A stretch of 28,182 bases of DNA from IMG/VR virus record IMGVR_UViG_3300042507_003696, positions 1 to 28,182 of that record. One strand, written 5' to 3'. Positions 17,831 to 27,996 of this stretch are shown here, one piece after another (the first letter of the stretch is position 1; the number at the start of each line of letters is the position of its first letter). The position numbers and the translations under genes were made by a program. The notes below the pieces were generated by a model. The model saw nothing but the letters and a program-made list of their open reading frames with translations, was not told the origin of the DNA and made no database searches. Source of the DNA: a virus.

Positions 17831-17863
17831 ACCGCCATGCCCGTTGGTGGGGCTATCGTGAGC

Positions 17864-17897
17864 GAAGGGCAGGGAAGTTCCCGCTTCCCTGCCCTTC
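17864..17897 (+). terminator. Strong hairpin after the SSB candidate
   Basis: GAAGGGCAGGGAAG (17864-17877), loop TTCCCG, CTTCCCTGCCCTTC (17884-17897): a perfect 14-bp stem starting 34 nt after the stop codon. Followed by TAACACC rather than a U-run. Position and strength fit a terminator between the SSB candidate and the homing endonuclease. Confidence 0.65.
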
Positions 17898-17926
17898 TAA
17901 CACCTCAACCTGTACAAGAGGTTGTG

Positions 17927-18746
17927 ATGCTGCCCTATCCTACCCCGCCAAGCGGCGGTGGCCTCTACGTTATTCGGCTCTCCGACAATCACTACTACGG
18001 AGGCCGCACCAAAGCCTTCACGAACAGGTGGGCGGTTCACTACCGCCTACTGCGTGACGGCAAGCACTTCAATGCCCACGCCCAAGCCGTGTTCAACCAA
18101 CACGGTCGGTTTGAGCCGGAAGTGCTGTGCGTCACCTCAAATGAGGGTGGGCGGCGCGAACTTGAAGGTTTGTGGTTGCAGGGCAACGTGGGCAAGCCGG
18201 GGTGTGTGAACCTCTCTCGGTCTGCGGACGGTGTTCATGTGGGCTACACGCACTCGGAAGCCACCCGAGTCAAGCACCGCCGCCCTGTGCATACGGACGA
18301 GTCGAAAGAGAAGTGCCGCCAAGCCGCACGCCGTCCCCGCAAGTCCTACACCCCCCACCCCCACACCGAAGAAAGCCGAGCGAAACTCTGCTTCCTTGAA
18401 GCGGGTGTGGGCACGGGAGAAGGAGGCCGGGGTCAAACGTGCAGGGTTTGGTGGCACCCACTCCGACGAGGCTCGCGCCAAAATCTCTGCGGCCAAGAGG
18501 GGGCGTCCCCACCCCCACACCGGGGTAAGCAAGACGCAGGAACAGAAAGACCACCAATCCCAAGCCATGCTTGATTGGTGGTCTTCCCTCACCCCCGAGG
18601 AGCGAGAGGCCCATGCCTCCAAGCAGAAGGGGCGTCCTCCCACCAAGGGCATGACCGGACGTAAGCACACCCCCGAGACAAAGCGCAGAATGTCCGAGGC
18701 CCGTAGAGCACGAACTTCCCGACTGACCCCCGAGAGCAAACCGTGA
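17927..18746 (+). pseudogene. GIY-YIG homing endonuclease with NUMOD3 repeats, frameshifted
   Basis: A free-standing GIY-YIG nuclease. The GLYVIRLSDNHYYGGRT motif opens it, and a Glu (ELEGLW) and an Asn (CVNLSRSADG) complete the nuclease domain. Several NUMOD3-type DNA-binding repeats follow (GYTHSEATRVKHR, HTDESKEKCRQAA, HTEESRAKL). At about 18383-18392 the frame changes by +1, and the repeats continue in the next frame (GGTHSDEARAKISAAKRG, KHTPETKRRMSEARRAR). Restoring a CT pair after AAACTC would give KLSASLKR, the expected repeat, so a 2-nt deletion in a CTCTCT-like run is the simplest cause. The conserved sequence on both sides implies a recent shift, a sequencing error, or recoding. ATG 17927 has AAGAGG 5 nt upstream. 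The end overlaps the RuvC-like start as GTGA. Confidence 0.85.
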
Positions 18747-19402
18747 AGGTTTTAGGCATTGACCCCTCCCTTACCGCGTATGGGTGGGCCATGCACGACA
18801 CCGAAGCCCCTGTGGGTTCCCCGAGCAGATGCCCTGCTCGGGGTCGGTTCTCTACCCCGTCCAAGATGGAGTTTGTGGTTCGCTACATGACCATGCGCGA
18901 CTCGTTGCGCGCCCTCATTCAGAGGGAGAAGCCCGACAAGATTGGCATAGAGCATCCTGTCTTTTCGGCCCTCTACTCGGAGGGGATGTACGGGCTGTTC
19001 CTCTACTCCTGCGAAGCCCTGCGAACCGAAGGTTGCGACGTAGTGTTTTGGTCGCCCCTGCAAGTCAAGGCCCATGCCCGTGAAACCCTCGACCGTCCGA
19101 AGTCGTGGGTCATGGACAAGGTGGACATGGTGGAGGCGGCGAAGAAAGACGCGGGTGGCAAGACATGGAACCACAACGAGGCTGACGCTTACCTTGTGGC
19201 CCGTCTTGCGGGACGGTTTTGGGGCCTGTACGAGCAAACCCTCGCAGAAGACGCTCTCACCCCTACGGAGCGCAAGTACTTCACCGAAATCAAGCAGTTC
19301 GTTCGCGGAAAGAAGGCGGGTCAGTCGGAACGCCGAGGGGTCATTTACCGCGAGGACGACCGCTTCTTCCTGTGGTCTAACACCCTCTCTCCCAAGGACT
19401 AA
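18743..19402 (+). CDS. ruvC: RuvC-like Holliday junction resolvase
   Basis: A 219-aa protein of the RuvC/RNase H fold, which cuts four-way DNA junctions made during recombination and phage DNA branching. Acidic residues expected in the active site are D7 (LGIDPSLTAYGWA), E70 (KIGIEHP) and E146/D148 (NHNEADAYLVARLAG). A 20-residue insertion follows the first strand. The C-terminal 60 residues (160-219) extend beyond the core and are of unknown role. The start is GTG, overlapping the stop of the upstream endonuclease frame (GTGA). It is followed 4 nt later by recA, consistent with a shared recombination operon. It might act on other branched substrates, as other phage RuvC-like enzymes do. Confidence 0.8.
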   Translation: MKVLGIDPSLTAYGWAMHDTEAPVGSPSRCPARGRFSTPSKMEFVVRYMTMRDSLRALIQREKPDKIGIEHPVFSALYSEGMYGLFLYSCEALRTEGCDVVFWSPLQVKAHARETLDRPKSWVMDKVDMVEAAKKDAGGKTWNHNEADAYLVARLAGRFWGLYEQTLAEDALTPTERKYFTEIKQFVRGKKAGQSERRGVIYREDDRFFLWSNTLSPKD

Positions 19403-19406
19403 ACAC

Positions 19407-20612
19407 ATGGCACGCACCGCCGCACCCAAACCGGACAAGGAAACCCCCGTCGTCACGGGGTCGAGCGCCCTCATGCGAGGGCTCGCTATGGCAAAGAAGA
19501 TGCTCCCCGACGTGGTGAAAACCTCGTTCGTGGAACTTGACCCCGACGCCATGAGCGAGAGCCTTCCCCACCTCCCCACCGGCAGCATTATCGTGGACTA
19601 CCTCATTGGCGGGGAGCCGAACTCCCGTGGCGTGCAGCCGTGCCCCGGCTTGCCCCGTGGGCGCGTGGCGCAGGTGTGGGGGCACGAGAGCGCGGGCAAG
19701 ACGACGCTCGCCCTCACCGCTGCCGCGACCGTGTGTGCGCGGGGCGGCACGGTTCTCTACATAGATTGGGAGAACGACATCGTTCCCGACTACGCCGAGG
19801 CCCTTGGCGTGCCCATTCTTGACCCCGAGAAGTTCCAACTCCATCAGCCCGAGACGTTGGAGGACGGCATCAAGTTGGCAATGGTGTTCGCACAGGCGGG
19901 CGTTGACCTCATTGTGTTCGATTCCATTGGCTCGGCCATTCCGGCGCGTATCGCCAACCGCGAGGTTGAAGAAGCGGGCGAGCAGTCCCGCGTCGGTGAG
20001 GAGCAGCAGGTGTGGAGCCGCGAACTCCCCAACCTCAAACGGGTCATCAACCAAAAGGGAACCTGCATCTTCGGCATCTCGCAGGTTCGTTCCAAGATTG
20101 GCATGACGGGGTACGGGCCGACCACGCAGCCGCAGGGCGGCAACGCATGGAAGTTCTACTCGGCGGTGCGCTTGGAGTTGACCCGCGTGAAGTCCGAGAC
20201 GGCGAAGGTTGTGAACGCGCTCACGAACAAGAGCGACGACCGCGTGGTGGGCGGCATCATCGAGTGCAAAGTCATCAAGTGCAAGTTGTCGAAGTCGCAG
20301 GGCCGTAAGGAGCAGTTCTACATTCGGTGGGGCGAGGGCATTGACGACCGCCGCTCCATCCTTGAAGTCGCCGTGGCAAACGGCCTCATCAAGCGGTCGG
20401 GCAACTGGCTCTCGTGGACGGCACCGGACGGTCGAGAAATGCGGCACAACGGCATGGAGTCCTTTCGCAAGGACTTGCTCAAGAACCCCGACAACTTCAA
20501 CGTGCTTGTGCGCGCCGTGCTCCCCCTCCTGTCGGGGGGTGGCAAGGCAGAGGACGTAAGCGTAGACGAGGACGACGACATGGACGGTATCGACGCCGCC
20601 CTTGTCGAGTAG
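19407..20612 (+). CDS. recA: RecA-type recombinase
   Basis: A 401-aa strand-exchange protein that forms filaments on single-stranded DNA. Walker A is GHESAGKTT (bacterial RecA has GPESSGKTT). Walker B is VDLIVFDSIGS. The family signature appears as GGNAWKFYSAVRLELTRV. GISQVRSKIGMTGYGPTTQP corresponds to the loop L2 region. The N-terminal extension of about 50 residues and the acidic tail (EDVSVDEDDDMDGIDAALVE) resemble RecA, whose acidic tail tunes DNA binding. Closer to RecA than to T4 UvsX by these motifs. AAGGA lies before the ATG, only 4 nt after the ruvC-like stop. Together with SbcCD, RecD2 and the resolvase it makes a full recombination pathway. Confidence 0.93.
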   Translation: MARTAAPKPDKETPVVTGSSALMRGLAMAKKMLPDVVKTSFVELDPDAMSESLPHLPTGSIIVDYLIGGEPNSRGVQPCPGLPRGRVAQVWGHESAGKTTLALTAAATVCARGGTVLYIDWENDIVPDYAEALGVPILDPEKFQLHQPETLEDGIKLAMVFAQAGVDLIVFDSIGSAIPARIANREVEEAGEQSRVGEEQQVWSRELPNLKRVINQKGTCIFGISQVRSKIGMTGYGPTTQPQGGNAWKFYSAVRLELTRVKSETAKVVNALTNKSDDRVVGGIIECKVIKCKLSKSQGRKEQFYIRWGEGIDDRRSILEVAVANGLIKRSGNWLSWTAPDGREMRHNGMESFRKDLLKNPDNFNVLVRAVLPLLSGGGKAEDVSVDEDDDMDGIDAALVE

Positions 20613-20654: not shown

Positions 20655-21905
20655 GTGCCTGTCACCGTCCGTATCCGCAACGTGCAGTCCATCCGTGACG
20701 CGACCCTTCGTGTAGAGGGGTTCACGGTGGTGACCGGCCCGAACAACTCGGGCAAGACCGCAAGCCAACGGGCCGTGCGAGGGGTGTTCACCAACGCCTC
20801 TCCCGGCCCGCTCGTGCGTCATGGGGAGAGCCACCTCACGGTGGACCTGACCTTTGACGACGGGCGAACGGTCAAGTGGGAGAAGGGCGAGAAGGTCAAC
20901 CGCTACACGGTGGACGGCAAAGTTCTCTCCACCGTGGGGCGCGGCGCACCGCCCGAAGTCACGGCTCTTGGTGTGGGGGAGGTCAAGGCGGGCAGCGACC
21001 GCTTGTGGCCGCAGATTGCCGAGCAGTTCGGCGGGGTGTTGTTCCTCGTTGACCGTCCCGGCTCCGTGGTTGCAGAAGCCCTGTCCGATGTGGACAAGGT
21101 GGGCAGGTTCACCGAAGCCCTACGGCTCGCAGAGAGCGACCGACGTTCCGTGGGGGCAGAACTCAAAGTCCGGCGGACGGACCTACTTGCAGCGGAGCAA
21201 GAACTTGCGGGGTTCGACACCCTCCCCACGGCGGCGTCTTGTGTGGAGCAGGCCGAGCAAGCCCTCGCAGACACCGAGAGCATCGGGGCGGACCTCGCGG
21301 TGCTCACCGACCTGTCTACGCGAAAGCAGGCTGCTAACGCTGACATCACGCACTTTTCGGGGGCTCCCGTTGGCGTCGTCCCGACGCAGGACGAAGTTTA
21401 TTTTGTTGAGGGTGTCCGGTTTCGGGTCCAAGAGGCGTCACGGCTCTTGGGGGAGCGGACCCGCTACTTGCGCGAGGTCGAGCGCCTCGCGCAAGTAAGC
21501 AGCGTTGTGTCGGTGCCGGACACCCGTGATGCTTTTACTGCCATGAACAACTTGTCCGACCTGCGGGCCATTCTCGACCGCCTCGTGTCCGCTCGGAAGC
21601 AGGAAGCGTCGGCGCAACGGAACCAAGACGGTGCTTCCGCCGTGCGCGTCCCCCCGTCCGAGGTGTTCGTCCGCGTGGACAAGGCCAAGGGCATTCTCGC
21701 AGACATGGCGAACTGCGCGTCCCGGCGCAAGAAGGCCCTGCATGACCTCTCCACGGCTACGCAGGAACTTGAAGCCGCAAAGAAGAACCTCGCGTTGCTC
21801 ACCAAAGAAGTCAACACTTTGCTTGGGGACCGGGGAGAGTGCCCCGTGTGCCGCGCCGTGTGTGACACGGGTTCCGGGGGTTCGCACGCCTCCGTAGACG
21901 GGTAG
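20655..21905 (+). CDS. SbcC/Rad50-type ATPase, N-terminal half (Walker A to zinc hook)
   Basis: A 416-aa protein equal to the first half of an SbcC/Rad50 ATPase. Walker A is GPNNSGKT (28-35), after the strand VTVRIRNVQSIRDATLRVEG. The ATPase lobe continues to about 140 (EQFGGVLFLVDRPGSVVAEA). A predicted coiled coil occupies most of 140-390. The protein ends with GECPVCRAVC (C396, C399), the zinc-hook position at the tip of the coiled coil, and stops 13 residues later. No signature motif, Walker B or H-loop is present. Those are found in the gene at 27346. The two together are 632 aa, a normal length for a compact phage SbcC. It cannot hydrolyse ATP alone. The GTG start has GGTAGGG 6 nt upstream. 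The stop is followed by a hairpin and then sbcD. Confidence 0.88.
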   Translation: MPVTVRIRNVQSIRDATLRVEGFTVVTGPNNSGKTASQRAVRGVFTNASPGPLVRHGESHLTVDLTFDDGRTVKWEKGEKVNRYTVDGKVLSTVGRGAPPEVTALGVGEVKAGSDRLWPQIAEQFGGVLFLVDRPGSVVAEALSDVDKVGRFTEALRLAESDRRSVGAELKVRRTDLLAAEQELAGFDTLPTAASCVEQAEQALADTESIGADLAVLTDLSTRKQAANADITHFSGAPVGVVPTQDEVYFVEGVRFRVQEASRLLGERTRYLREVERLAQVSSVVSVPDTRDAFTAMNNLSDLRAILDRLVSARKQEASAQRNQDGASAVRVPPSEVFVRVDKAKGILADMANCASRRKKALHDLSTATQELEAAKKNLALLTKEVNTLLGDRGECPVCRAVCDTGSGGSHASVDG

Positions 21906-21926
21906 CCTCCTTCATAGGTAGGAGGC
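21905..21926 (+). promoter_or_regulatory. Hairpin masking the sbcD ribosome site
   Basis: GCCTCCT (21905-21911) pairs with AGGAGGC (21920-21926). The right arm contains the GGAGG ribosome-binding sequence for the GTG at 21931. The last base of the upstream stop codon is in the left arm, so ribosomes ending the SbcC N-half would open the stem and couple the two genes. Confidence 0.5.
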
Positions 21927-21930
21927 CCCT

Positions 21931-22896
21931 GTGCCCGTTCGTCTCGTTTGGCGCACCGACGTTCACATGGCTGACCGTGGCCCCGAGAGCCGCAAGGACG
22001 ATTGGGCCTCCACCGTCCTCGACAAGTTGGGGCAGGTGCGGGCCGTGGCCGAGAAGGTGCGGGCCGTGGCCGTGCTCGACGGGGGTGACTTCTTTCATGT
22101 GAAGTCTCCGAGCCGGAACTCCCATGAACTCGTGCGGCAGGTGGCAGAGCACCACGCGGACTACCCGTGCCCTGTCTACTGCACGCCGGGGAACCACGAC
22201 TGCACCTACGGGGACTACGCCTTCCTGCCGCAGCAGCCTTTGGGGGTCTTGTACTCGACGGGCGTGTTCAAGCGCCTCTATGACGAGCACGAGGCCGTCT
22301 TTGAGCAAGACGGTGTGAAGGTACGGGTGGTCGGTGTCCCCTACCACGGCACCAAGTACGACCTCGACAGGTTCCGCCGTATCAAGAAGGGCGACGAGCA
22401 CCACCTTGTGTGCGTGGCGCACGTTCTCGCTTCCGAGAAGGGCGGCACCATGTTTGAGGGCGAGGACATCGTGCGCTACTTCGACCTCCTCGACACCGCA
22501 CCTGACCTGTTCCTGTTCGGGCATTGGCACAAAGACCAAGGCGTGACGACGCTCGGGGACAAGACGTTCGTGAACATTGGCTCCCTCACCCGTGGCTCGC
22601 TCTCGCAGGACGAGGTGGAGCGTCAGCCCGCGTGCGCGGTGCTCTCGTTCATGCCCGAGGGGCGAGACATTCGGGTGGTGCGCTTGAAGGTCAAGCCCGC
22701 CGACGAGGTGTTCGACGTGGAGCGCCGTCAGCGTGTGGAGACACGGCGCATGGAAATGGACGCCTTCGTGAGCACGCTGCGCGACACCTTCACCCAAGAA
22801 GTGTCGGGTGACGTGGCGGGGGTTCTCGCAGGCATGGCCGACGTTCCCGAGCAAGTGCGTGAGCGTGCGCTCGCCTACCTTGAACGGGTAGGCTGA
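21931..22896 (+). CDS. sbcD: SbcD/Mre11-type nuclease
   Basis: A 321-aa calcineurin-like phosphoesterase, the nuclease partner of SbcC/Rad50. All motifs are visible: DVH (10-12), GGDFFH with D53, GNHD (87-90), VAHVL, and GHWH with following K. The C-terminal part (PADEVFDVERRQRVETRRME) is helical and probably the ATPase-binding region. SbcCD cleaves hairpins and protein-blocked DNA ends; T4 gp47/46 is the phage counterpart and processes ends for recombination-dependent replication. It directly follows the N-terminal half of the split ATPase, as sbcD usually neighbours sbcC. The GTG start has GGAGG 5 nt upstream within a hairpin. Confidence 0.93.
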   Translation: MPVRLVWRTDVHMADRGPESRKDDWASTVLDKLGQVRAVAEKVRAVAVLDGGDFFHVKSPSRNSHELVRQVAEHHADYPCPVYCTPGNHDCTYGDYAFLPQQPLGVLYSTGVFKRLYDEHEAVFEQDGVKVRVVGVPYHGTKYDLDRFRRIKKGDEHHLVCVAHVLASEKGGTMFEGEDIVRYFDLLDTAPDLFLFGHWHKDQGVTTLGDKTFVNIGSLTRGSLSQDEVERQPACAVLSFMPEGRDIRVVRLKVKPADEVFDVERRQRVETRRMEMDAFVSTLRDTFTQEVSGDVAGVLAGMADVPEQVRERALAYLERVG

Positions 22897-22899
22897 CCC

Positions 22900-23814
22900 A
22901 TGCACGCCACGCTCTACCAAGCCTCCTGCTTTGATACCCTTGCCGCCGTGCAAGCCGAAGGCGGTGCTGACCTTGTGTTCACCTCTCCCCCGTATTGCGA
23001 TGCTCGCACTTATGGGAACGCTGTGTCGTGGTCTATGGAGGACTACGCCCGCCTTGGCGATGCTATCTTCGCGGCGTTGAAACCGGGTGGGCATTGTCTG
23101 TTCAACGTAGACGCGCCTATTCGGGAATGGAGGCCGGGGTTTGGCACGGAGCGCGGGTTTCACCCTTGGAAAATCATGCTCGATTGGGCCGAGCGTGTGG
23201 GGTTCCGCGTTCCCGACCGCTTGGCCTTTGCTCGCTTCGGTTCTCCCGGTGCATACGCAGGCCGCTTTCGGAATGATTGGGAGCCTTTGTTTTGGTTCCA
23301 ACGTCCCGGTGGCGACGGGTTCTTCGACAAGCATTCCATTGCCGCCGAATCAAAGCATGAATATGGGCGCAAGGTCGTCACTTCCCGCAAGAATGACGGA
23401 ACTTTGTATGTTCGTGCCGCGACGGGTTGGGCAGCGGAGAACAACAAGGTTCAACGTGGAACCTTATGGGACTACGGCCCGATAGGAGGCGGGGCCGCTA
23501 CGGAGAAAACTCTCTATGAGTTGAACCACCCGGCTTCATTCCCCTACGCCCTCGCTATCGACGTTGTGCGCTGCTTCGCCCCGGTTGGGGGCTTGGTCGT
23601 AGACCCGTTTCTCGGGAGCGGAACCTCTGCCTACGCGGCTTTCAGTCACGGGTGTCGGTTCATTGGGGGGGACTTGTACCACCACGAGGACGGTACGCCT
23701 TGGGTCGTCAAGGTGCGTGACATGCTCGCCAATGCCTTTGACCCCGGTGCCCTCGCCCTCTTTGGCGACAATCCCGTTCCGGTGGTTGAAGTTCGAGGCC
23801 CGTCTAACGGGTAA
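22900..23814 (+). CDS. DNA methyltransferase, amino (N4-cytosine or N6-adenine), beta-type order
   Basis: A 304-aa DNA methyltransferase. The catalytic motif TSPPY (motif IV) is near residue 28, and the S-adenosylmethionine-binding motif DPFLGSGT (motif I) is near the C-terminus; this order defines the beta class. SPPY is common in N4-cytosine enzymes, but the base cannot be settled by eye. The middle (RNDWEPLFWFQRPGG) is variable and probably part of target recognition. No restriction partner is adjacent, so it likely protects phage DNA. Codon use includes more A/T-ending codons than its neighbours (for example near 23330-23460), which suggests later arrival. It sits 3 nt after sbcD and lies between the two halves of the split ATPase. 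Confidence 0.88.
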   Translation: MHATLYQASCFDTLAAVQAEGGADLVFTSPPYCDARTYGNAVSWSMEDYARLGDAIFAALKPGGHCLFNVDAPIREWRPGFGTERGFHPWKIMLDWAERVGFRVPDRLAFARFGSPGAYAGRFRNDWEPLFWFQRPGGDGFFDKHSIAAESKHEYGRKVVTSRKNDGTLYVRAATGWAAENNKVQRGTLWDYGPIGGGAATEKTLYELNHPASFPYALAIDVVRCFAPVGGLVVDPFLGSGTSAYAAFSHGCRFIGGDLYHHEDGTPWVVKVRDMLANAFDPGALALFGDNPVPVVEVRGPSNG

Positions 23815-23840
23815 ACTGACTACTCCAAGGAAGCCTTTTC

Positions 23841-24917
23841 ATGGAACCTGTTTCTCTTTCCCCCGGCATCGGAGATAGCCGACCGACCGCCACGCTCTAC
23901 TACGGCCAAGACGTTCGGGAGACACTTCGCACGCTCCCCGAAGCGTCCGTCCACACGGTCTGTACCTCGCCCCCCTACTTCGGCCTTCGGGACTACGGCA
24001 CCGGGGACAAGCAGATTGGGTTGGAGGACAGCCCGGAGGAGTTCGTCGCGGCTCTCGTAGACGTGTTCCGCGACGTGCGCCGCGTGCTGCGCGACGACGG
24101 CACGCTTTGGCTGAACCTCGGGGACAGTTACGCCAGCAGCACTAAGGGCAGCGGGGGAACCGGAAAAAGTACGCTCGGTGCGGCGTCCGGGGGGAATGGG
24201 ATTAGCGCCGAAGGAATCGCGCGCTCGCAAGCACGGCAGAGCATGGCTCCGCGCAAAATGACGTGCGGTATTGCGGACAAAAACCTGCTCGGCATCCCGT
24301 GGCGTGTAGCGTTAGCCCTTCAAGCGGACGGGTGGTATCTGCGCCAAGACATTATTTGGGCCAAGCCGAACCCTATGCCCGAGAGCGTGACCGACCGCTG
24401 CACGAAGGCACACGAGTACGTCTTCCTGTTCGCCCACCCCGACAGCGGGGGCCGGTACTACTACGACAACGAGGCGGTGAGGGAGCCCGTAAAGGCTGGC
24501 AATACAGGGGTTCTCCGTATCCCCCAACAAGATAAGTACGCGCTTACAAGCACCAAGGTTGACCCAACACTTAGTCGAGTAGACCGATACGACACCATCA
24601 AGGGTGCCAATCGTCGCAGCGTGTGGAACGTGAATGTGGCACCTTACTCGGGTTCCCACTTCGCCACTTGGCCCCCCGAACTCGTCCGCCCGATGGTCCT
24701 CGCGGGGTGTCCGGCAGGGGGCACGGTGCTTGACCCGTTCTCCGGTTCGGGCACGACGGGCATGGTCGCACTCCAAGAAGGGCGTAACTACGTTGGGATT
24801 GACTTGAACCCCGACTACCTCCCCCTCGCCATGAACCGAGTGCAGGAACTTCCTGCCCCGTCCAACGCTTCCGACGAGGAGAGGGGGGACGCCTTCGACC
24901 TGTTCTCGGGCGGGTAG
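23841..24917 (+). CDS. Second DNA methyltransferase, amino type, beta order
   Basis: A 358-aa enzyme distinct from the preceding one. TSPPYFGLRDYG is motif IV (about residues 43-54). LWLNLGDSYAS follows, then a Gly/Ser-rich insertion (GSGGTGKST, not a real P-loop context). A conserved DIIWAKPNPMPESVTDRCTK segment and HEYVFLFA come next. Motif I, DPFSGSGTTGMVAL, is followed by YVGIDLNPDYL. This is a common phage methylase type, N4-cytosine or N6-adenine. The extreme C-terminus, DAFDLFSGG, faintly resembles clamp-binding peptides. AAGGAAG precedes the ATG. Parts near 24120-24240 and 24500-24600 are less GC-biased than neighbouring genes. Two different methylases in tandem point to protection against more than one restriction specificity. 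Confidence 0.9.
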   Translation: MEPVSLSPGIGDSRPTATLYYGQDVRETLRTLPEASVHTVCTSPPYFGLRDYGTGDKQIGLEDSPEEFVAALVDVFRDVRRVLRDDGTLWLNLGDSYASSTKGSGGTGKSTLGAASGGNGISAEGIARSQARQSMAPRKMTCGIADKNLLGIPWRVALALQADGWYLRQDIIWAKPNPMPESVTDRCTKAHEYVFLFAHPDSGGRYYYDNEAVREPVKAGNTGVLRIPQQDKYALTSTKVDPTLSRVDRYDTIKGANRRSVWNVNVAPYSGSHFATWPPELVRPMVLAGCPAGGTVLDPFSGSGTTGMVALQEGRNYVGIDLNPDYLPLAMNRVQELPAPSNASDEERGDAFDLFSGG

Positions 24918-24926
24918 GGTGCCACC

Positions 24927-25898
24927 ATGCCCGTACTGCCCCCCGCCGACAAGAAGCCGCGCCGCCCCTACACCTTGTATTGGAGCAGCCTCAAAATGTA
25001 CGAGGACTGCCCGCAGTCGTTCCTGTGGGGACGCGGGTGGGGCGACATTGACGTAGGCGGTGGGCCGGGGCGCAGCAAGCCCCTGCCCGTGAAGAAGTCG
25101 CGGCACCATGCTCTCATGGGCATGGTCATTCAGTACGCCATTGAGAAGATGTACAACGACGAACTGTGGCGTGCCCCCGCTGAACTCAACGGTCGGCTCA
25201 TGGCACTCGTGGAGGAGGAATGGGACCGGCAGGTGATGAAGCCCGACAACTACGTTGACTACGGGCTTGCGGGTGACCGAACCTCTCTGCTTGAAGTCTG
25301 CAAGAACGGCGTCATGGGCTACCTCCGCACCATGAAGGAGAACCGCCTTCTTGGTCCTTACGCGAAGGCCGAGGTGAGCCTGCTCGGGTGGGTGGACAAG
25401 TACAACCCCGTGGGGGGCCGGGCCGACTTGGTTATCCGGCGCGACGACACGGGCATCACCATCCTTGACGGCAAGAACAGCAAGACGAAGGGCGAGTACA
25501 CCGACCCCGACCAACTCCGGTGGTACGCCCTTCTGTTCTACTTGTCCTACAAGCAGCACGCGAACCGCGTCGGTTTCGTCTACTACCGCTACCCCTACGG
25601 TACGCCCATTCTCGGTGTGGACGGACAGCCCACGGGCGAAGTGGAGAGTGGGGTGGATTGGGTTCCCTTCACGGAGGCCGACCTCAAAGGCTTGGCGCAG
25701 CGCGCCGTGGACGCCCGCACGGGCATGAACCGGGAGAAGTTCGACGCGACCCCGGTGCCGTCGAAGTGCAAGTGGTGTGACTACGAAACGGTCTGCCCCG
25801 CTCGCCAAGCACAGAAGTCCGAGAACGCGGGCAAGCGGGCGAAGAAGGTGGAGGGGCTTCCCGAGGGCACCGGGGGCTTCACCGACCTCGACCTGTGA
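24927..25898 (+). CDS. PD-(D/E)XK nuclease with Fe-S cysteines (Cas4/AddB/RecB-like)
   Basis: A 323-aa exonuclease-like protein. Active-site residues are D167 (GGRADLVI), D181 and K183 (TILDGKNSK), with Q196 in the following helix (DPDQLRWYALLFYL), and a His near 60-61. Four Cys match the Fe-S cluster arrangement of Cas4 and AddB: C28 (YEDCPQSF) and C281, C284, C290 (CKWCDYETVC). Such enzymes resect DNA ends, usually making 3' tails for recombinase loading. With SbcCD and RecA in the same operon this gives an end-processing set. The start is 9 nt after the methylase stop, with GGTAGGGT as ribosome site. There is no helicase domain; RecD2 elsewhere could supply unwinding, which is inference. 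Confidence 0.87.
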   Translation: MPVLPPADKKPRRPYTLYWSSLKMYEDCPQSFLWGRGWGDIDVGGGPGRSKPLPVKKSRHHALMGMVIQYAIEKMYNDELWRAPAELNGRLMALVEEEWDRQVMKPDNYVDYGLAGDRTSLLEVCKNGVMGYLRTMKENRLLGPYAKAEVSLLGWVDKYNPVGGRADLVIRRDDTGITILDGKNSKTKGEYTDPDQLRWYALLFYLSYKQHANRVGFVYYRYPYGTPILGVDGQPTGEVESGVDWVPFTEADLKGLAQRAVDARTGMNREKFDATPVPSKCKWCDYETVCPARQAQKSENAGKRAKKVEGLPEGTGGFTDLDL

Positions 25899-25958
25899 GG
25901 GGTCGGGCACGAAGCCCCCACGGGTACTTGTCCCCCACTACGGGAGAACCTACACGAC

Positions 25959-26228
25959 ATGACCCTTGACGAACGGCTAAAACTCGCGGCGCAGCAGCGG
26001 GACGAACTCGCCGCTGCCGTGCAGCGCATTTCGGGGCGGTTGGAAGCCGCCAACAAGGCACTCGCACTCGTGGAGCAGGAGTGCCGGGACAAGGGGTACG
26101 ACCCCGACACCCTTGACGACACCCTGCGTGCCACGCAGGCCAAGTACGAGCAAGCCGTCACCGCTTTGGAGAAGCAAGTGGCAGAGGCCCGTGCCGCCCT
26201 TCAACCCTTCACGGAGAACCCCAAGTGA
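25959..26228 (+). CDS. Small coiled-coil protein, 89 aa
   Basis: A highly charged, almost entirely helical protein: one helix (DERLKLAAQQRDELAAAVQR), a break at ECRDKGYDPDTLDD, and a second helix (ATQAKYEQAVTALEKQVAEA). This suits an antiparallel coiled-coil hairpin. No family recognised. Its stop overlaps the GTG of the clamp gene (GTGA), so it is translationally coupled to the clamp and, through it, to the C-terminal half of the split SbcC. Because that half has only a short coil, this protein could complement it or bind it, but nothing in the sequence proves this. Confidence 0.7.
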   Translation: MTLDERLKLAAQQRDELAAAVQRISGRLEAANKALALVEQECRDKGYDPDTLDDTLRATQAKYEQAVTALEKQVAEARAALQPFTENPK

Positions 26229-27358
26229 AAATCGAGATTGCCAAGTCCGACCTTGAAAGCGCCCTCGCCGTCGTCGGCAACACCGTCAGCGGTTCCGGCT
26301 CCGACCTGTCCGCGCACTTCCTGTTCCGCGTCCAAGAGGGTGCAGCGCAGGTGCTTGCGTTCCACCACCGCACGTTCTCGCTCGCCCCGCTCACCAAGGC
26401 CCGCGTTGAGGGCGAGGACGGGGACGCCTTCACCGTGGAAGCATGGCGTCTCACCAAGTGGGTCAGCGGCATCGGTGACGTTGCCGTTCTCCTGTCCACG
26501 GACGGCAACGGCGAGGTGAAGGTGTCCGGTGGTCGCAGCACCATCCGTCTCCGCTCCCTCGACCCGTCCAAGTTCCCGTATTGGGACAAGACCCTCGCCG
26601 GGGCCACGAGCACGGGCAGCGTTCCGGCCAACCGTCTCGGTGCAGCGGTCGGCTACGCCCGCCGCTTCGTCTCGCAGGAGGACACGACCCGCCCCGAAAT
26701 CTCGCAAATCGAAGCAATGGGTGGGTGCTTGTGGTCGTCTGACCGCCGCGCCGTGTCGCTCGTGAAGGTGGACGGCTTGGAGGACATGGGGCTCCGCGTG
26801 GCGGGCAAGGACATTCCCGCCGTGTTGAAGTTCTTGACCACCAAGCCCACCGCTGACGACACCGTGGAGGTGTTGGAGGCGGATAGCGCGGTCTACTTCC
26901 GCCGCACGGACGGCGCGCATGTCGGCGTGGCCCGTCCGAACGCCGCCTTCCCCACGTTGAAGGGTGTCGAGAGCGACCCCTCCGAGGTGTGGGTGGAGTT
27001 CGCCGGGAGCGACCTCCGCGCCGCAGTCAATGTCCTGTCGGCGTCCGCGAGCAAGGACAACGAGGCCATTCTCTTGTCCGTGAAGGGCAAGCAGTTGGTG
27101 TTCTCCATGACCTCCGAGGCGGGGGGTACGGACGAGTACCCCGTTGATCTCACGGCTTCCGAGAACCTTGAAGCCTTCCCGGTGGACGGGGCGAGCGTTG
27201 GCTTCGGGCACCTGCTCGGGTTCTGCGACCACTTCTCCCTCGACAACCTGCGCTTGGAGGTCCACTTCAAGGGCAAGGGGGGCTTCTTCGCCTTCCGCAA
27301 GGGTACTTCCGGGGACGACGCGAACTCGTACTACACGGTTGTGGTGTGGCGCACCTGA
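26225..27358 (+). CDS. dnaN: DnaN-type DNA polymerase sliding clamp
   Basis: A 377-aa protein with the length and organisation of the bacterial beta clamp (three similar domains). The start MKIEIAKSDLESALAVVGNT matches the first helix of DnaN. Internal signs are STIRLRSLDPSKFPYWDKTL (compare the DnaN pattern with FP.l at the end of domain one) and RRAVSLVKVDG. A DnaN-like length is unusual in phages, which more often encode short gp45-type clamps (about 220 aa). It encircles DNA and tethers polymerase and repair enzymes. The loader subunits at 7802-9468 probably act on it. GTG start overlapping the upstream stop. The 3' end overlaps the next gene by 13 nt. Confidence 0.82.
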   Translation: MKIEIAKSDLESALAVVGNTVSGSGSDLSAHFLFRVQEGAAQVLAFHHRTFSLAPLTKARVEGEDGDAFTVEAWRLTKWVSGIGDVAVLLSTDGNGEVKVSGGRSTIRLRSLDPSKFPYWDKTLAGATSTGSVPANRLGAAVGYARRFVSQEDTTRPEISQIEAMGGCLWSSDRRAVSLVKVDGLEDMGLRVAGKDIPAVLKFLTTKPTADDTVEVLEADSAVYFRRTDGAHVGVARPNAAFPTLKGVESDPSEVWVEFAGSDLRAAVNVLSASASKDNEAILLSVKGKQLVFSMTSEAGGTDEYPVDLTASENLEAFPVDGASVGFGHLLGFCDHFSLDNLRLEVHFKGKGGFFAFRKGTSGDDANSYYTVVVWRT

Positions 27359-27996
27359 CGAACCTTTCTGACGCCGTGGCGTCCCTGCGCTCCGACCTTT
27401 CACGGGTCGAGGGTCGCAGGGACGCTGCCCGCACCCGCCTGCAACAAGCAGAGCGGGAGGTGGCACGGCTCATGGGAGAGGAACAAGTGCTCGACCGTGT
27501 GGCCGACTTGTTCCGCGTGCTCATTGACCGCGAGGTGGTGGACAATGCCAAGACGGCGGAAAGCCTTCTCACCGAAGGCTTGAAGGCTGTCTTTGACGAC
27601 ATGGACTTGTCGGTTCGCTCCGAGGTAGACGTACAGCGGGGCAAGGTGTCCGTAGACCTCTACACGGTGCAGACGCAGCCCAACGGGGTCAAGACAGAGG
27701 CCGCGAGCACGGACGCCTACGGCGGCTCCGTGTCCGTCGTGCAGTCGGTTTTGCTCCGTGTCGTCGTCACCATGCGCCGGGGAATGCGCCCGCTTCTCCT
27801 GTTGGACGAGAGCCTTGGGGCTGTGGCCGAGCAGTATGTTCCCCGTGTCGGGCAGTTCCTACGGCTTTTGTCCGAGCGGGTAGGAATGGACGTTCTTGCC
27901 GTCACTCACAACCCCGTGCTCGTGGAAGCCGCCCACAAGGCGTACCGCATTCGCAAGGACAACGGGGAAGCCACCTTCACCGAGATAAGAACATGA
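27346..27996 (+). CDS. SbcC/Rad50-type ATPase, C-terminal half (signature, Walker B, H-loop)
   Basis: A 216-aa protein equal to the second half of an SbcC/Rad50 ATPase. A short coiled coil lies at about 8-60. The ATPase lobe follows with the ABC signature as YGGSVSVVQS (125-134), Walker B LLLLDES with D154 and E155, a D-loop (SLGAV) and the H-loop VTHN (H188). No Walker A is present. It would complete the half encoded at 20655. Co-expressed N- and C-terminal halves of Rad50 are known to assemble into an active head, so a natural split is plausible. GTG start within the end of the clamp gene (13-nt overlap, different frame), so it should be translated by coupling. Its own stop overlaps the next ATG (ATGA). 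Confidence 0.88.
   Translation: MAHLTNLSDAVASLRSDLSRVEGRRDAARTRLQQAEREVARLMGEEQVLDRVADLFRVLIDREVVDNAKTAESLLTEGLKAVFDDMDLSVRSEVDVQRGKVSVDLYTVQTQPNGVKTEAASTDAYGGSVSVVQSVLLRVVVTMRRGMRPLLLLDESLGAVAEQYVPRVGQFLRLLSERVGMDVLAVTHNPVLVEAAHKAYRIRKDNGEATFTEIRT

Follow-up and report, generated by a model that had tools for sequence, protein, structure and literature searches.

The window analysed here is the whole of IMG/VR viral record IMGVR_UViG_3300042507_003696 (28,182 bases), a metagenomic contig that represents a fragment of a genome. It contains an SbcC/Rad50 ATPase that is split at the zinc hook into two genes, encoding an N-half of 416 amino acids (aa; 20655..21905, + strand) and a C-half of 216 aa (27346..27996, + strand). 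The split is natural, present in several phage lineages and stably inherited, and we hold with high confidence that the two halves of this SbcC/Rad50 together make one ATP-binding cassette (ABC) head. An earlier note on the window had given the gene positions, a gap of 5.4 kb and a combined length of 632 aa, and all these coordinates hold. Beyond that note, we find that the family is broad, that a small coiled-coil protein is conserved with the halves, and that the serine of the ABC signature has been lost.

Complementary halves of one Rad50-type ATPase

The N-half comprises lobe I with the Walker A motif, as in Rad50/SbcC, followed by a helical arm and a terminal CPVC motif. It matches the Pfam family AAA_23 (PF13476) with 27.1 bits, at a cut-off of 27, and phrog_16465 with E=1.5e-11, and a profile of the N-half family retrieves the Rad50 N-lobe from the PDB sequences (E=6.5e-9). 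In the Walker A motif GPNNSGKT (residues 28-35; 20736..20759, + strand), G28, G33 and K34 are invariant in 28 N-halves. The CPVC zinc-hook motif (residues 396-399; 21840..21851, + strand) is located 17 residues before the C-terminus. Of 31 distinct N-halves, 30 have the CxxC of the Rad50/SbcC zinc hook 6-24 residues short of the C-terminus, in the form CPxC in 28 of them, and a profile of the N-half tail weakly matches two structures of the Rad50 hook, 6zff at E=0.005 and 1l8d at E=0.014.

The AlphaFold2 model of the N-half (predicted local distance difference test score, pLDDT, 74; predicted template-modelling score, pTM, 0.32) is of low confidence beyond the head. It is nearly all helix after residue ~136 and holds no second ATPase lobe, which answers the concern that the N-half might have its own signature and Walker B. 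The earlier reading of Walker A and CPVC followed by a stop stands, but the 'long coil' described between them is not a plain one: the arm is modelled as a 90-residue helix and three more helices, and its sequence breaks every ~45 residues (243, 288, 333). Arm lengths across the family differ by about one such unit. Fold searches with the N-lobe leave SMC, RecF and Rad50 tied (Z about 9-12), and the N-half is placed with Rad50 by its hook and its SbcD partner, not by its fold. In RecF a single short chain bears both lobes and a long coil is absent, whereas here the lobes are on two chains and the arm is long. SMC proteins have a hinge between their coils and bind a kleisin; no hinge-like segment is seen in the N-half model, which is of low confidence beyond the head, and a CxxC tail is there instead.

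The C-half consists of a proximal helix and lobe II. As had been noted before, it has the signature position, Walker B and H-loop without a Walker A motif, and the open reading frame and the structural model (pLDDT 86.7; one helix spanning residues 2-82, then the lobe) agree on this. Pfam detects nothing ABC-like in it. Its full length is spanned by a match to phrog_15167 (E=7.8e-20). Among PDB sequences, a profile built from 22 C-halves scores best against 3qkr_B, the chain that forms the C-terminal part of Pyrococcus Rad50 (E=2.8e-10), and 1ii8_B is matched too. The model aligns with Rad50 1f2u_B over 144 residues (Z=14.6, root-mean-square deviation 2.8), the best SMC row reaching Z 12.5. 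Both halves match the same family, Rad50, each covering the part that the other lacks; they do not point to different ATPase families.

The lobe II elements of Rad50/SbcC (Walker B, D-loop and H-loop) are all present on this second chain. D154 and E155 of Walker B (LLLLDE, residues 150-155; 27793..27810, + strand) are invariant both in the 22 C-halves and in an alignment of 76 split or permuted sequences, some of them near-identical; H188 of the H-loop T-H (VTH; residues 187-188; 27904..27909, + strand) is likewise invariant in the 76. The signature differs. Aligned with Rad50, the position of LSGG[EQ] reads Y-G-G-S in the window (residues 125-128; 27718..27729, + strand), and the family column is x-G-G-[GSA] against LSGGE of Rad50, with the GG kept in nearly all C-halves. 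Serine occurs in 0 of the 76, its position being mostly occupied by R, F or Y. Judged from this alignment, the serine-free signature is likely a marker of a clade, with T4 gp46 as the sole outgroup and its signature column poorly aligned.

Relatives, fusions and circular permutants

When 50,697 phage records were searched by tblastn, both halves came up in LR745208, which is from an uncultured phage and 485 kb long, in Microbacterium phage Magritte and in Tunturiibacter phage Tunturi_5. Bacillus phage vB_BboS-125 and Microcystis phage Mvi-JY20 each gave a C-half, with an N-half close by. Scans of viral contigs added 10 C-half loci, 25 N-half loci, 27 Bacillus-type loci and 3 that are Magritte-type or beyond, some near-duplicates included; C-half scans queried with the Mvi-JY20 and Tunturi_5 proteins gave no additional relatives. 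A cellular origin was considered and rejected: a strong C-half match was present in only 1 of 296 Actinomycetota genomes, a metagenome-assembled genome whose matching contig also looks phage-like, and a scan of genome contigs returned the same single assembly.

Among 32 whole records the C-half is present in 29, the N-half in 31 and both in 28, each in single copy (two N-half rows in one record are alignment pieces of one gene). The four records short of one half may be incomplete. The earlier note had proposed a search for relatives that are fused or equally split; 28 of the 32 records are equally split, none has the halves fused in the normal order, and fusions in the reverse order occur on megaplasmids, as described below. 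The halves are ~93-109 kb apart in Magritte, Tunturi_5 and one further record (G025), and on opposite strands in Tunturi_5. Nor was a second, complete SbcC, which would have undermined the split, found in these records of up to 485 kb: no record has more than one PF13476 match, and in 29 records that match is the N-half. The exception, at 16.1 bits, is under the cut-off and comes from the record of L002, whose contig carries no N-half. Distances between N-heads and those between C-halves correlate strongly (49 pairs, r=0.956, a value that none of 1000 permutations reached), which supports co-inheritance rather than contact.

On large plasmids of Bacillota (Geobacillus, Aneurinibacillus, Paenibacillus and Brevibacillus), proteins of 801-937 aa combine SbcD and the N-half in one chain (L130:1621-4026, L131:950-3763, L132:1462-3987 and L137:1410-3965). 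These end in CPxC and a short tail, and separate coil and C-half genes follow downstream. In Alkaliphilus the four genes are unfused but contiguous.

A different fusion is found on megaplasmids of Pseudomonadota, where tblastn with a 635-aa Pseudomonas protein detected relatives on 21 records, some near-identical. In all seven for which the order was checked, the query included, the C-half comes first and the N-half second, and the chain ends in, or shortly after, a CxxC (L135:4342-6249, L138:3617-5515, L139:3641-5518, L141:2507-4477, L142:2333-4252, L143:2492-4132 and L144 from 2330). Pfam places the C-terminal part of SMC_N at 136-212 of the query, AAA_23 at 239-516 and a sub-threshold Rad50_zn_hook at 601-632 (E=0.03). 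The fusion retains both native outer ends of the halves, and we take the megaplasmid SbcC, from its domain order, to be a circular permutant of homologous halves, a finding in its own right. In several cases a coil-like gene precedes and an SbcD gene follows; the latter is clear in Variovorax, Bosea and M. extorquens, and in the Pseudomonas and Alteromonas permutants the next protein is only faintly SbcD-like. These last proteins (L138:5508-6410 and L143:4135-4911) are strongly diverged, with E about 0.001 and metallophosphatase motifs seemingly missing. In a tree of C-halves the seven permuted forms make one group (100/100), as do the four SbcD-fusion forms; its midpoint root does not decide which form came first.

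Some AAA-ATPases of Pseudomonas, Aeromonas and Bordetella phages also match the N-half. The one that was translated, Pseudomonas phage Dolphis gp48 (L044:7986-9314), is a complete single chain and not a split system: it has its own C-terminal lobe, with a degenerate Walker B that by eye reads VDG for DE, and it adjoins an annotated exonuclease.

The proposed complex and its alternatives

An SbcD/Mre11-like nuclease of 321 aa is encoded in the cassette (21931..22896, + strand). It matches Metallophos (PF00149, E=7.5e-12) and SbcD of phrog_100 (E=1e-4), and SbcD accompanies the pair in the cassette of the relatives too; a PDB search with the single SbcD sequence gave no match at 0.001. The earlier prediction of a complex of N-half, C-half and SbcD gains support from the existence of SbcD-N and C-N gene fusions.

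A further component may be the small helical-hairpin protein (89 aa; 25959..26228, + strand), in which the motif G-x-D-P-[DE]-x-[LI] lies between two helices. Homologues of ~80-100 aa are found in 27 of the 32 records at E<=0.001 and in all 27 Bacillus-type loci. The protein is detected in L108 (E=3e-5 in a left-out test) and weakly in L109 (E=0.21); gp245 of Magritte, 56% identical to the L109 protein across 57 residues (E=0.007), is a candidate, and L110 has an 81-aa candidate in the right place whose match is not significant. On the megaplasmids, homologues precede the permuted SbcC in four cases (E 2e-6 to 3e-3). By these matches the hairpin protein, previously unannotated, accompanies the halves in most lineages, and this recurring association suggests that it is a subunit, which may contact them. 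It finds only generic coiled coils in a PDB sequence search. Profile comparison with the coil of the C-half gave probabilities of 29.9% and 8.7%, too weak to decide whether the protein is a fragment of that coil.

The likeliest reading is a multi-chain complex resembling Mre11-Rad50 whose head is built from two chains. In our proposal, the N-half (lobe I, arm and hook at its free end) and the C-half (short helix and lobe II) would associate to form one ABC head, and two such heads would sandwich ATP. The docking site for SbcD would be the root, made up of the N-half's first arm helix together with the N-terminal helix of the C-half, and the hairpin protein may pack on the exposed arm or on the unpaired C-half helix. 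The terminal CPxC would pair through zinc with that of a second complex. The likely job is that of T4 gp46/47, the processing and tethering of DNA ends for recombination-dependent replication, a role that the RuvC-RecA-N...SbcD-nuclease-coil-clamp-C cassette would fit. Since split halves and reverse-order fusions both occur, the Rad50 ATPase seems not to require a loop joining its two arms. We also lean towards the view that these proteins are a Rad50 lineage of their own, carried by phages and megaplasmids, with a two-chain head, a dedicated hairpin subunit, a serine-free signature and, in some members, permuted fusions.

Several observations weigh against this proposal. The ~45-residue arm units vary in number among relatives, and if every break in the arm were a turn, the direction in which the hook points would be reversed between some relatives and others. 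Outside the head, confidence in the N-half model is low. Not one of the aligned C-halves has the signature serine, and therefore ATP-driven head engagement cannot be assumed. The CxxC is missing in the N-halves of Magritte and L109, a loss that is likely secondary because their relative L108 keeps CPTC. Finally, the distance correlation and the co-occurrence of the halves are also expected from common descent alone, for which reason the correlation speaks for co-inheritance and not for contact.

The lost serine raises the alternative that a two-chain head forms but is no normal ATPase, in that it would bind nucleotide in the manner of a structural clamp or would switch slowly. It is favoured by the replacement of Ser, mostly by R, F or Y, beside an invariant Walker B D-E and H-loop His, and by the signature of P. 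furiosus Rad50 being, in the title of PDB entry 1us8, essential to ATP binding. Yet the retention of Walker A, Walker B and H-loop together suggests that catalysis is under selection, and the GG of the signature is nearly always retained, so we consider this alternative unlikely. Rather doubtful, though with a fair case behind it, is the view that zinc at the terminal CxxC has a local structural role, such as docking the hairpin protein, and forms no intermolecular hook or tether. That the motif sits on a free end, preceded by helices whose number varies, and that Magritte and L109 lack it would agree with this. However, CPxC is otherwise near universal, the tail resembles Rad50 zinc hooks, if weakly, both in the N-half profile and in the sub-threshold Rad50_zn_hook match of the permuted protein, and hookless Magritte still has a candidate hairpin protein.

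That each half is a single-lobe protein with a partner of its own, and that together they make no composite enzyme, could be argued from their frequent separation by other genes and their location on opposite strands in some phages (Tunturi_5). Given their complementary, non-overlapping matches to one family, their one-to-one co-occurrence and the natural C-N fusions, we find it very improbable. Even less credible is that protein or RNA trans-splicing rejoins the halves into one chain. No support for it was found; it was weighed since split phage genes often lie near homing endonucleases, and in 7 of 27 Firmicutes loci a gene for an AP2-like protein separates the N-half from the coil. From the start of CxxC the N-half runs on for 6-24 residues only, which leaves no space for an intein fragment, and the C-half has its own start, which overlaps the clamp gene; moreover, some pairs of halves are encoded on opposite strands or ~100 kb from each other, and both native outer ends survive in the C-N fusion. 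A split brought about by a homing gene was rejected, as the AP2-like protein is undetected in the remaining Firmicutes loci, which are equally split. The inserted AP2-domain gene of the Bacillus-type phages (L008:2738-3310 and relatives) is possibly mobile. An assembly error or a frameshifted full-length gene, conceivable for a metagenomic contig, has next to no probability: dozens of independent records share this arrangement, with intact genes in between, and so do isolates, which rule it out.

The two-chain assembly that we prefer shares with cellular Mre11-Rad50/SbcCD, including P. furiosus Rad50, the Walker A lobe I, the Walker B/H-loop lobe II, the CxxC hook and the SbcD partner gene. 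It differs in that no single chain holds both lobes and two coil arms joined by a hook loop; the halves are separate genes, the signature serine is gone and the hairpin protein is added. The geometry unlike that of standard Rad50, pointed out early on, is seen in a hook that lies at a free chain end and in arms of unequal length. Rad50 has been split artificially for crystallography, with most of the coils and the hook omitted by design. The resulting Pyrococcus structures (1f2u, 1ii8 and 3qkr) likewise have two chains per head, whereas the phage N chain keeps the whole arm and hook, and its split is maintained by evolution. Phage T4 gp46/gp47 is also a Rad50/Mre11 pair near a sliding clamp gene, with likely the same role in recombination-dependent replication, but gp46 is a single 560-aa chain with CPTC in mid-chain and an FSEGE signature.

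We found no description of a naturally split or permuted SbcC/Rad50 in the open-access literature (bioRxiv and most subscription papers lie outside this scope), in keeping with the earlier impression that the split is undescribed. The available text of Yoshida et al. (2011; PMC3175470) describes SbcD/SbcC (Mre11/Rad50) fusions on plasmids and in viruses, one SbcC P-loop NTPase segment not being observed in Bacillus phage 0305phi8-36 and Anaerostipes; that text reports neither a separate C-half nor a split. A survey of jumbo phages (PMC7824862), in its available part, records split DNA polymerase III alpha and RNA polymerase, in which a core enzyme of large phages is similarly divided among genes, and near-universal SbcC/SbcD, and is silent on split SbcC. 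In PHROGs the halves are filed as two unlinked functions, 'exonuclease' (phrog_16465, N-half) and 'ATPase' (phrog_15167, C-half). New are the association with the hairpin protein, the Bacillota SbcD-N fusion, the megaplasmid C-N permutant and the absence of the signature serine.

Models of Rad50 signalling assume that the ATP state of the head travels along two antiparallel coils joined at the zinc hook. Nature has cut this joint and kept it cut across diverse phages, and megaplasmids join the other ends instead, which makes it testable which parts need covalent linkage for Mre11-Rad50 to work. If the lineage is indeed distinct, a closed hook loop joining the arms would be dispensable for Mre11-Rad50 function. 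The analysis also assigns a function to two phage families annotated as 'ATPase' and 'exonuclease', singles out a small conserved protein that had no annotation, and supplies structural biology with parts that are compact and separable.

Other genes of the cassette

The order RuvC-RecA-N-(variable genes)-SbcD-nuclease-coil-clamp-C is recurrent in the core group, with partial loci at contig ends. LR745208 (~45% identity) has the gene order of the window, apart from other genes in between; two TnpB-like transposon proteins, recognized by eye, lie beside its cassette (L003:21338-23577). In the window a RecA/UvsX recombinase (19074..20612, + strand; domain from ~19380; PF00154, E=1.1e-39) is located directly upstream of the N-half, and it is adjacent or near-adjacent in most core relatives. 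Pfam and PHROGs matches and coordinates confirm the genes named earlier between the halves: besides SbcD and the small coiled-coil protein, these are two N6/N4 DNA methylases, a PD-(D/E)XK exonuclease (24927..25898, + strand; PF12705, E=5.2e-16) and a sliding clamp of 377 aa (26225..27358, + strand; phrog_947 'DNA polymerase processivity factor', E=4.9e-22). The clamp gene starts inside the end of the hairpin-protein gene and overlaps the C-half gene by 13 bases. Because of this overlap, expression of the C-half may be coupled to that of the clamp; the clamp-C order is kept in core relatives.

The conserved start of the cassette is a RuvC-like Holliday junction resolvase (18743..19402, + strand; phrog_159, E=7e-18). 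Beside it, window positions 17837-18746 hold a GIY-YIG-like homing-endonuclease sequence followed by NUMOD3-like repeats in another frame (open reading frames 17837-18574 and 18231-18746), by eye an apparently frame-broken homing gene.

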